From Salinadaptatus halalkaliphilus (GTDB lineage: Archaea; Halobacteriota; Halobacteria; Halobacteriales; Natrialbaceae), in assembly GCF_006543045.1 (NCBI RefSeq), contig NZ_RBZW01000003.1, positions 1 to 64,000 of the forward strand: a stretch of DNA of 64,000 nt. The letters are read 5' to 3'. Made by a program: the position numbers and the translations under genes. Under the pieces are notes generated by a model. The model did not search any database and had not been told where the DNA came from. It was given only the letters and a program-made list of their open reading frames with translations. This document shows positions 24,600 to 28,035 of this stretch, piece by piece. Each line of letters begins with the position of its first letter. The stretch's first letter is position 1.

Positions 24600-26327
24600 T
24601 TAGTGACCCTGATCGTGGGGGTTCAGCGCCGTCCCGTAGTTCTCGGCGTGGTCGGTGTACTCGATGAATCGCGGCGCGTCCGGCTCGAACGGTCGCTCGA
24701 GACTTTCGAAGGCCTTCTTCTTGTCCCAGCCCTGAAGCTTACCGATCGCGGACTTATCCTCGAGATCGTGGTAATCGAGTTTCGGCTCGGTGAGTTCCCA
24801 GGCGTCGACGCCCGTCTCAGTCCGGAGGATGACGCTCGAATACTCGTCGGAAGAGCCGACGGAGCCGACGGTGATGTCCGAACAGAAGCCGGTGAAGTCG
24901 GCACACTCGTCACAGCCTTTCAAGGCGGCGTCGTGGAAGTTCTCGATGTCTTCCTCGACGATCATCTCGCCGTCGTGATCGTAGACCATCATCTTCCCGT
25001 TGAGGACATCCATCTTGCCGATTTCGGACGGCGATATGCCGCGCTGTTCCTCCAGTTGCTCGCCCATGAGGCTGTGGTAGTTGAAGTTCTTCGTACACAT
25101 CAGCGCGATCGTGTACTCGACGGCCTGGATGCCCTCGTTCTGGGCCTGATAGTCCCAGTCGAAATCCTGGAGCGCGCGGATGCCCTCGATCTCACACGGC
25201 GTGCCGACGATTGCGATACTGAGTTCGTCCCAGGACTTGTCCGGAAGCTTGTGCTCCCACTGCCCGAGGTCGAGGTTGCCGAGCGCCATCGTCTGGTTGT
25301 AGACGGTGCCGGCGTTTTCGATGAGTTCCTCGGTCGTCGTCGCGAGGTAGCTCTCGGCTTTCCACTCTTGTTCGTCGCTCTCGGTCGCGACGAGCGCGCC
25401 GTCGATCTTGCCCTCCTCGAGCAGCGTCGAGAGGATACCGGTGACGACGCCGCCGTCCTGGGCCTGGTCAGTCCAGTCGTCGTCGACCTTCGCGGAGAAC
25501 TCCGTGATCGGGTCGCCAGCACCCTTGACGTTGTCCTCGCCGCCGGTGATCTTCCACTGGCGCTCGTAGCGCAGGCCGCCCCGGGGACAGAAGTCCCAAC
25601 AGAGCGAACAGCCGGTACACATCTTGACGAGTTCCGGCTCGCCGTCGTCGCCGATGCCGATCGAGTCGGACGGACAGGCGGCGACGCAGGTCCCACACTG
25701 GATACAGCGGCCGTCGTCGATGACCGCCTCGTCGAGTTCCATGAACCAGGTCTTCTCGTCCGGCGTCTCGATGTCGTTCATCTGCGACCGAATCGAGTAC
25801 TCGGGGGTGTCGAGGTCGACACCATCCGGAATCCCGACGCGCGTATCGGGTGCGTCGTCGTAGACATCCTGACTGACGTCTTCAGCGGGCTCGGTGAACT
25901 CGAGGTCGCCGAGGTCGCCGGTCTCGTCGACGTTGGCGACGCCCGCACCGTCGGCACGAAGCGTCGACGAGGATCGCGAACCTCCATCGGAACGTTCTGC
26001 GTCCCACTCTGGATCGCGCTTGCTTTGCTCGCGCTCACCGTCGGTTCCCTCACCACCGCCGGTGGCGACGCGCTTGTCGTCGGTGTCGGCCAAGCCTGCG
26101 GACGCGGCCGGTTCGGCCGTCTTTTCGCCGCAGGTGCAGGTATTGGGCGAGCAGCTGTCGTCCTCCGCGTTACCGCCGTTGGTCTCGATGGCGCCCTCGC
26201 GGCCGTGGTTCGTCTCGTCTCGAGACTGCGCACCAGCACCCTCGGGGACCATCACGGCCGCATCGTCATCCGTGTTCGACTCGGGGACACCGGGGAAGAC
26301 GCGCTCGTCCTTGCCGTCAGTCCCCAT
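24600..26327 (-). CDS. FrhB-type coenzyme F420 dehydrogenase/hydrogenase beta-subunit protein
   Basis: 575 residues from the ATG at 26327. Residues 1-195 are an acidic, disordered extension holding an odd C59-x4-C64-x-C66 motif (SCSPNTCTCGE). Then come two 4Fe-4S ferredoxin motifs (C208/211/214/218 in CIQCGTCVAACP and C237/240/243/247 in CTGCSLCWDFCP). The FrhB core follows, with GVVTGILSTLLEEGKIDGAL, IAIVGTPCEIEGIRAL, ALMCTKNFNYHSLM and GCDECADFTGFCSDI. FrhB proteins bind FAD and oxidise F420H2. It overlaps the reductase gene by 11 bases, so the likely job is to pass electrons from F420H2 to that siroheme enzyme. Confidence 0.9.
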   Translation of the reverse strand: MGTDGKDERVFPGVPESNTDDDAAVMVPEGAGAQSRDETNHGREGAIETNGGNAEDDSCSPNTCTCGEKTAEPAASAGLADTDDKRVATGGGEGTDGEREQSKRDPEWDAERSDGGSRSSSTLRADGAGVANVDETGDLGDLEFTEPAEDVSQDVYDDAPDTRVGIPDGVDLDTPEYSIRSQMNDIETPDEKTWFMELDEAVIDDGRCIQCGTCVAACPSDSIGIGDDGEPELVKMCTGCSLCWDFCPRGGLRYERQWKITGGEDNVKGAGDPITEFSAKVDDDWTDQAQDGGVVTGILSTLLEEGKIDGALVATESDEQEWKAESYLATTTEELIENAGTVYNQTMALGNLDLGQWEHKLPDKSWDELSIAIVGTPCEIEGIRALQDFDWDYQAQNEGIQAVEYTIALMCTKNFNYHSLMGEQLEEQRGISPSEIGKMDVLNGKMMVYDHDGEMIVEEDIENFHDAALKGCDECADFTGFCSDITVGSVGSSDEYSSVILRTETGVDAWELTEPKLDYHDLEDKSAIGKLQGWDKKKAFESLERPFEPDAPRFIEYTDHAENYGTALNPHDQGH

Positions 26328-28035
26328 GGGCAACACCTCCGGCGACGGGAGCTTCGGCACCTTGCATAATCGTTCGTAGCCGCTCGTTGTCGACGCGGCG
26401 ACACCACGCGTAGAAGCGTTCGCCGTCGTGACGGTCGTCGGCGTAGGCGTCGAAGAGTTGCTCGAGTGCGGGGATCACGGCGTGGGCCGGGACGGCGCTT
26501 TCGATCCAATCGAGGAACTCGTTGTCCGCCCCGAGCGAGCCGCCAAGGCCGAAGTCCATCCCTTCGACGAGATCCTCGCCTTCCTCGTTCGGTGCGTCGA
26601 TGTGGTCGGGTGCCTCGTCTTCGGACAGCTTGACGGTCTCGCCCCGGAAGCCGATGTCGGCGATCTGGGGCTGGGCACACGAGGCCGAGCAGCCGGACAT
26701 GTGCATCCGGATTGCCTCGATATCGTCGGGGACATCAATGCGCTCGTCGAGTTCGCGAGCCCAGCGCTTGGTCCGCTTTTTCGTCTCGATGATCGCGTAG
26801 TTACAGAACTCGTTGCCCGTACAGCCGACGGCGCCCCGGGAGAATGCGCCCGGATCGGGCTGGTACTCCTGGGCGAACGGTTCGGCGAGCAGATCCTCGA
26901 GGTTCTCGTCGGGAATGTGGGTGACGAGGAAGTTCTGGTCGGTCGCCAAGCGGACGGAGGCGTCCTCGGTGCCGTACTGCTTGGCGGCGCGGGCGGCCGC
27001 GGCGAACTCGTCGCCGCCCATGCGACCGGCGATGACGTTGAAGCCGACGTAGTTGAGGCCGTCCTGTTTCTGCTCGTGGACGCCGACGTGGTCGCCCTGG
27101 TAGCCGACGGTCAGGTTCTCGCCGCCGGTCGGGAGTTCGATCGTCAGGCGGTCGCGGATCGCCTCCTCGAACTTCTCGGGGCCGAGCTGTTCGACGAGAT
27201 AGCGCATGCGACAGACGCCGCGGTTGTTGCGGTCGCCGATCTCCTTGAACGTCTGGGCGACGGCGCGACAGAACTCGACGGCGTCTTCCGGCGGGATGAA
27301 GACGTCGAGTTCGGAGGCCATTCGCGGACCGTCTGAGAGGCCGCCGCCGACGCGGGCGTGGAAGCCGTAGTAGTACTCCCCCTCGATTTCTTTTTTCGCT
27401 GGGACGAGGCCAACGTCGTTGATCTGGGACTGGGCGCAGTCGTGGGCACAGCCCGTGATGGTCATCTTGAACTTCCGCGGGAGGTTTGCGTACTCGCGAT
27501 TGCCGGTGAAGTAGTCGGAGACGGCTTCGATGACCGGCTGGGCGTTGAAACACTCGTGGTCGCTGATGCCGGCTGCGGGGCAACCGAGAACGTTCCGGGC
27601 GGAGTCACCACACCCCTGGACCGTCGTCAGGCCGACCTCGTCGTAGCGCTCCCACATCTCGGGAACGTCTTCGACGCGAATCCAGTGTTTCTGAATGTCC
27701 TGGCGGGTCGTGATGTCGAGATAGGCGTCGCCCCAGAGTTCGTTCTGTTCCGTGCCGCCGTACTCCTCGGGAGCGACGGCCAGGTCGTCGGTGACCTCGC
27801 CGATAACCTCGGCCTGTTCGGGCGTGAGCTTCCCGCCCGGCACCTTGGTCCGGATCATGAAGTAGCCCTCCTGTTTCTGGGCGTACATACCGGCCCACTT
27901 CAGCCGTTCCCACTCGCCGCCCCCGGCGCGCTCCTCGATCTCCTCGAAAGAGAGCCCACCCTCGGCGTACTCGTACACGTCGTCGATCACGTCGAGGGGG
28001 TGTTTGTTCTGTTTGTACTGTTCGGTCGTGTTCAT
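26317..28035 (-). CDS. Siroheme [4Fe-4S] nitrite/sulfite reductase, NirA-like
   Basis: 572 residues from the ATG at 28035. An in-frame GTG lies three codons earlier. The duplicated ferredoxin-like reductase halves are clear (TTVQGCGDSARNVLGCP, TGCAHDCAQSQINDVGL in the first). The metal site is C405-x5-C411 (CTGNEFCNYA) and C449-x3-C453 (SGCSASCAQPQIADIG), which bind the cluster next to siroheme. TGNEFC favours assimilatory nitrite reductase over sulfite reductase, but the substrate is not certain. It makes a six-electron reduction in the cytoplasm. Co-transcribed with the FrhB-like gene rather than with nitrate reductase. Confidence 0.9.
   Translation of the reverse strand: MNTTEQYKQNKHPLDVIDDVYEYAEGGLSFEEIEERAGGGEWERLKWAGMYAQKQEGYFMIRTKVPGGKLTPEQAEVIGEVTDDLAVAPEEYGGTEQNELWGDAYLDITTRQDIQKHWIRVEDVPEMWERYDEVGLTTVQGCGDSARNVLGCPAAGISDHECFNAQPVIEAVSDYFTGNREYANLPRKFKMTITGCAHDCAQSQINDVGLVPAKKEIEGEYYYGFHARVGGGLSDGPRMASELDVFIPPEDAVEFCRAVAQTFKEIGDRNNRGVCRMRYLVEQLGPEKFEEAIRDRLTIELPTGGENLTVGYQGDHVGVHEQKQDGLNYVGFNVIAGRMGGDEFAAAARAAKQYGTEDASVRLATDQNFLVTHIPDENLEDLLAEPFAQEYQPDPGAFSRGAVGCTGNEFCNYAIIETKKRTKRWARELDERIDVPDDIEAIRMHMSGCSASCAQPQIADIGFRGETVKLSEDEAPDHIDAPNEEGEDLVEGMDFGLGGSLGADNEFLDWIESAVPAHAVIPALEQLFDAYADDRHDGERFYAWCRRVDNERLRTIMQGAEAPVAGGVAHGD

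Follow-up and report, generated by a model that had tools for sequence, protein, structure and literature searches.

The two adjoining genes at positions 24600-28035 of the window, by which we mean the whole 64,000-nucleotide stretch of Salinadaptatus halalkaliphilus DNA that was analysed, are probably those of aFsr, a heteromeric enzyme that makes sulfide as an F420H2-dependent assimilatory sulfite reductase. From their sequences we infer that the two proteins form a physical complex, that F420H2 is its electron donor, and that sulfite is its main physiological substrate. Both genes lie on the reverse strand. The upstream one (26317-28035), an open reading frame starting with ATG, codes for aFsr-alpha, a siroheme/[4Fe-4S] reductase of the NirA/aSir type of 572 aa, which displays two NIR_SIR and two NIR_SIR_ferr repeats in domain searches and whose assignment is also borne out by the tree. 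The downstream one (24600-26327), which likewise starts with ATG, codes for aFsr-beta, a predicted F420H2-oxidase subunit of 575 aa, assigned from its domains and solved relatives, and comprising FrhB_FdhB_N/C domains together with a 2x[4Fe-4S] ferredoxin domain at about residues 200-250. A previous sequence-only reading of this DNA had described a NirA-like siroheme/4Fe-4S reductase beside an FrhB-type protein with two ferredoxin clusters, with which our domain searches agree, and an overlap of 11 bases between the two genes, which is borne out by the coordinates: the TGA of the reductase occupies positions 26319-26317 and the ATG of aFsr-beta positions 26327-26325, leaving exactly 11 bases in common (26317-26327, reverse strand). 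Moreover, a Shine-Dalgarno-like site for aFsr-beta, GGAGGTG, can be read directly at positions 26334-26340 of the same strand, and since it precedes the aFsr-beta ATG inside the end of aFsr-alpha, it suggests translational coupling of the two genes. The proposal that the two activities of Fsr, F420H2 oxidase and siroheme reductase, occur here on separate, probably co-translated proteins in a halophile is supported.

The pairing of these genes is far beyond chance. With only the FrhB protein as query, 76 loci were retrieved, all but one titled haloarchaeal, and the reductase lies immediately upstream of the FrhB gene in 72 of the 73 loci holding upstream DNA (71 of these reductases are full-length, and one is cut by the contig end). 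The single exception is an extra solo FrhB copy without adjoining reductase in Halobacteriales archaeon YIM A00010 (locus L059, 9986-11398), which has a normal pair too (locus L043). With start codons chosen by script, the offset between the two genes is -11 in 27 other loci, -20 in 11, and -8 in 11. Within the window's type, the pairwise distances of the alpha and beta proteins are correlated (r=0.83, 71 loci, Mantel p=0.0005). Conserved neighbours give no functional clue, nearly all loci sharing only the two genes themselves, and the FtsY and prefoldin-type neighbours that we considered look like local synteny. The pair is carried by 64 of the 244 haloarchaeal genomes sampled, and no viral copies were found in our search. 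In Haloferax mediterranei it is located on plasmid pHME505 (E6P09_RS15580/15575), likewise with an 11-base overlap, and is publicly annotated as ‘ferredoxin--nitrite reductase’. An unannotated FrhB-like stretch at the end of the Halopiger xanaduensis plasmid pHALXA01 (locus L123, 4001-5143; 69% identical over residues 192-572) is possibly a remnant.

In our phylogeny, haloarchaeal reductases fall into four supported clades. Group A gathers the FrhB-paired reductases, including that of the window (support 100/100); group B consists of reductases fused to a double rhodanese, with their own FrhB next door (100/99); group C includes reductases for which no adjoining FrhB gene was seen at the loci inspected (95/98); and group D corresponds to NasA-linked reductases (100/100), among which is a second copy in the S. 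halalkaliphilus genome, on contig C25. Groups C and D are sister groups (100/99), while A and B join weakly (85/55). As to the reductase side of the phylogeny check that had been proposed, the paired group is a clade apart from NasD (100/100). NasA adjoins the group D reductase in S. halalkaliphilus (the C25 paralogue), and does so at six of eight further loci; no match to NasA was found beside the FrhB-paired loci L005-L077.

We surveyed the taxonomic distribution of these groups in the 244 genomes, using E-value thresholds read by hand for group assignment, and co-occurrence statistics that ignore phylogeny. A group C reductase is present in about 168 of the 244 genomes, and is probably the common haloarchaeal sulfite reductase; an example of about 590 aa (locus L096, 6911-8686) has a sulfite-type RKWK and the Tyr/Cys residues discussed below, and lies near DUF6360 and DUF7119 genes. 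Group C occurs in 28 of the 64 genomes with the pair versus 140 of the 180 without it (odds ratio 0.22, p=1.4e-6, phylogeny being ignored), a complementarity that would fit two alternative ways of meeting the same requirement, and 13 genomes have the pair and neither group C nor group D. NasD occurs in 47 of the 64 genomes with the pair versus 60 of the 180 without it, again ignoring phylogeny. This co-occurrence of groups A and D is the main distribution fact not favouring a sulfite substrate, and is probably a family effect, as the window's family often has both.

Concerning the substrate, sulfite is bound in MjFsr by a set of two Arg and two Lys residues shared throughout the sulfite reductases (PMC10229431), and all four positions are kept in aFsr-alpha (R62, R147, K188, and K190, within the motifs FMIR, GDSARN, and LPRKFK). 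Every one of the 71 full-length paired reductases has the motif LPRK(F/Y)K, in agreement with sulfite reductases. At the last substrate position, groups A and B and all members of group C examined have Lys, whereas wild-type tobacco NiR (RKWN) and the nine group D proteins examined (PRKFN in 9/9) have Asn. Moreover, Tyr51 and Cys142 of aFsr-alpha correspond to the covalent Tyr-Cys pair reported for Mycobacterium tuberculosis NirA, a sulfite reductase, the Cys being matched by alignment. Both residues are kept in groups A and C, replaced in group D, and absent in tobacco NiR. Because of these differences (Lys versus Asn, and Tyr/Cys), we regard group D as nitrite-type and the window's enzyme as sulfite-type; aFsr-alpha is in fact the only sulfite-type NIR_SIR protein found in the S. 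halalkaliphilus genome. The motif CTGNEFC, which is indeed found in aFsr-alpha and had been taken as a nitrite-type signature, varies within the paired group (N, S, or T), has T (CTGTEFC) in nearly all members of group C and of the NasA group, and does not separate the groups. The leaning of the sequence-only reading towards nitrite is likewise at odds with Lys, not Asn, at the second substrate Lys, and with the location of NasA away from the pair. Siroheme sulfite reductases often reduce nitrite too, and nitrite reduction may be a side activity of aFsr.

The rhodanese-type pair of group B is present in 23 of the 244 genomes. At locus L083 (7053-10766), as well as at loci L084-L094, a protein of about 800 aa has two rhodanese domains at its N-terminus, joined to a siroheme reductase of the sulfite type. 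Right after it comes an FrhB subunit with about 42% identity to aFsr-beta, which at some loci starts at the very next base. In four genomes (G205:C1:2413517-2414857, G005:C1, G133:C3, and G182:C1), the tblastn frames across the rhodanese-type pair hold one in-frame stop. This appears to be the stop of the reductase, with FrhB continuing in the same frame, which would place these loci one codon short of a Sir-FrhB fusion. On plasmid 2 of Natronococcus occultus (locus L122, 2598-6236), a rhodanese-type pair lies directly upstream of the nitrous oxide reductase genes nosZ and nosD. Rhodanese is thiosulfate sulfurtransferase-like, and the fusion in group B independently supports a predicted sulfur substrate. 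Fusions of rhodanese with NirA in Halobacteria had been pointed out in 2024, no FrhB partner being mentioned in the passage concerned (PMC11237513).

F420H2 is the likely donor to aFsr, because of the nearest solved relatives of aFsr-beta, its ranking in fold searches, its invariant FAD and cluster motifs, CofD, and the known synthesis of F420 in haloarchaea. By sequence, the closest solved relatives of aFsr-beta are a subunit of the F420-reducing CODH, Fsr, and FrhB (E 1e-40 to 1e-25), and a fold search with its weak AlphaFold model (pLDDT 51) ranked the same three above HCAR. The FAD motif (QDGGVVT), the cysteines of the third cluster, or motif C (C378, C411, C472, and C475), and ferredoxin motifs A and B are all intact; Q290, G292, G293, V295, T296, the four motif-C cysteines, C208-C218, and C237-C247 are invariant among 17 relatives. 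The S. halalkaliphilus genome has only one FrhB_C gene. Haloarchaea encode F420 synthesis (PMC8305020), and F420 is very likely available in S. halalkaliphilus because its genome encodes CofD (347 bits versus a cut-off of 257). The first 190 residues of aFsr-beta (window positions 25758-26327) form an acidic N-terminal extension of about 190 aa, whose clustered cysteines (CSPNTCTCGE here, CGCGSSCGCG in other relatives) might be a metal or Fe-S site. This extension is present in 62 of 73 relatives, and absent from the compared Fsr and 8RIU sequences and from the rhodanese-type partners.

We propose that aFsr-beta would oxidise F420H2 at its FAD, and that electrons would then pass singly from its [4Fe-4S] cluster (motif C) to the two ferredoxin clusters (motifs A and B) and on to the siroheme-[4Fe-4S] of aFsr-alpha, where sulfite would be reduced to sulfide with six electrons for cysteine synthesis. 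The enzyme would also remove toxic sulfite. Based on searches for PF01747 and PF01507, the classical sulfate-to-sulfite pathway is not evident in S. halalkaliphilus. Its genome has no member of the ATP-sulfurylase family PF01747, which occurs in only 6 of the 244 haloarchaeal genomes; matches to PAPS-reductase/CysD-like proteins are weak, and the PF01507 matches, considered as a sulfate-assimilation context, look like DndC-type, CysD/CysH-like (below cut-offs), and tRNA-thiolation-type proteins. The sulfate-APS-PAPS-sulfite route is viewed as absent from sequenced haloarchaea, and thiosulfate sulfurtransferase together with sulfite reductase may supply their sulfide (PMC3402447). A broader scenario can be put forward only tentatively, in which there would be two F420H2-driven sulfide-making versions, the Sir-FrhB pair acting on sulfite and the rhodanese-fused complex converting thiosulfate to sulfite and then to sulfide; both versions, together with group C, would make up for the missing APS/PAPS route, and F420 would be central in the sulfur metabolism of halophiles.

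It is unlikely that the pair is instead an F420H2-dependent assimilatory nitrite reductase, with sulfite as a secondary substrate. The nearest solved structures of aFsr-alpha are plant nitrite reductases, its best NCBIfam match is ferredoxin-nitrite reductase (below the cut-off of that model), the public annotation of the H. mediterranei copy points the same way, genomes containing NasD are enriched for the pair, and an F420-dependent relative of Fsr, the ANME FsrII, uses F420H2 for nitrite and not for sulfite (PMC9295563). However, all 71 full-length paired reductases have the sulfite-type Lys, the S. halalkaliphilus genome has an Asn-type reductase beside NasA, which was not found beside the pair, NasD is missing from 17 of the 64 genomes with the pair, and the sister reductases are fused to rhodanese.

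The grouping of aFsr-beta with Fsr, FrhB, and F420-CODH in both sequence and fold, well above HCAR, its retention of the FAD motif and of all cluster cysteines, and the presence of CofD also speak against the possibility, which we consider quite unlikely, that this subunit relays electrons from ferredoxin or another donor, and not from F420, in the way that the FrhB-fold HCAR uses ferredoxin. In favour of such a relay are the fold common to HCAR, the reductases of group C, which have no adjoining FrhB gene in the loci read and are presumably ferredoxin users, and the report of only one F420-dependent reaction in halophilic archaea (PMC8305020). A different setting, where the enzyme would serve sulfite detoxification, or the reduction of another sulfur or nitrogen oxyanion, and not assimilation, is unlikely as well. 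It would fit with the lack of an evident sulfate-to-sulfite pathway, with the role of methanogen Fsr, which is chiefly a sulfite detoxifier (PMC10229431), and with a group C reductase being also present in 28 of the 64 genomes with the pair, but less well with aFsr-alpha as the only sulfite-type protein of its family found in the genome, with the complementarity of the pair and group C (computed ignoring phylogeny), or with Natrinema sp. J7-2, whose genus carries the pair and which grows with sulfate as its only source of sulfur (PMC3402447). An F420H2-dependent assimilatory sulfite reductase remains the reading that we prefer.

The pair is already known as a prediction: aFsr was named in 2012 by Susanti and Mukhopadhyay as a putative F420H2-dependent assimilatory sulfite reductase of haloarchaea, with Haloterrigena turkmenica among the carriers (PMC3448663). 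The pair is thus not new, nor is it unique to the window, as 72 of 73 haloarchaeal loci have it. In Natronomonas, NP_4006A was described by Pfeiffer and Dyall-Smith (2021) as a distant relative of Fsr, ‘too distant to assume isofunctionality’ (PMC8305020), and NP4004A was called sulfite reductase (PMC3402447); from their gene numbers, these two are probably the same Sir-FrhB pair. A literature search, with most subscription journals outside it, found no assay of any haloarchaeal aFsr member. To this we add the evidence from substrate residues, a phyletic survey of the four groups, and a sister type in which rhodanese is fused to the reductase and which has an FrhB of its own. Little is said to be known about the production of sulfide for cysteine in haloarchaea (PMC3402447), and F420, with a single reported reaction in these organisms, has been called enigmatic in its role there (PMC8305020). 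If confirmed, an F420H2:sulfite reductase would partly answer both questions and correct the annotation of the H. mediterranei copy, whose location on a plasmid makes a test of the pair practical.

The aFsr described in 2012 has a separate aSir-type alpha and an Fsr-N-type beta, and the window pair belongs to it in every sequence feature that we tested, with a two-repeat siroheme reductase and an adjoining FrhB homologue with two extra N-terminal ferredoxin [4Fe-4S] clusters. Methanogen Fsr (PDB 7NP8 and 7NPA; PMC10229431) is alike in having an FrhB-type F420H2 oxidase, an N-terminal ferredoxin domain, and a siroheme sulfite reductase, as well as Arg, Arg, Lys, and Lys at the four substrate positions. 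However, Fsr joins both parts in a single chain, FrhB first and Sir second, and its reductase has only one repeat, whereas the window has two genes in the order Sir-FrhB and two repeats. Moreover, ferredoxin motif B of aFsr-beta keeps its second Cys as FpoF/FqoF do, unlike Fsr. The earlier description of the pair as a ‘split Fsr’ does not hold, given its two-repeat NirA/aSir type (E=4e-81 of aFsr-alpha with plant NiR versus 5e-8 with Fsr), and a gene order opposite to that of the fusion. NirA/SirA enzymes (tobacco NiR, 3B0G; M. tuberculosis NirA, 1ZJ8) belong likewise to the two-repeat family (E about 1e-80 and 1e-70, respectively), but their electron donor is ferredoxin and they lack an FrhB partner, and tobacco NiR has Asn where aFsr-alpha has Lys. 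The nearest solved relative of aFsr-beta is the zeta subunit of F420-reducing CODH (PDB 8RIU; PMC11493965), also a stand-alone FrhB-type protein with two N-terminal ferredoxin clusters that docks on another metalloenzyme, as aFsr-beta is predicted to do; there, however, the partner is CODH, and electrons flow towards F420.
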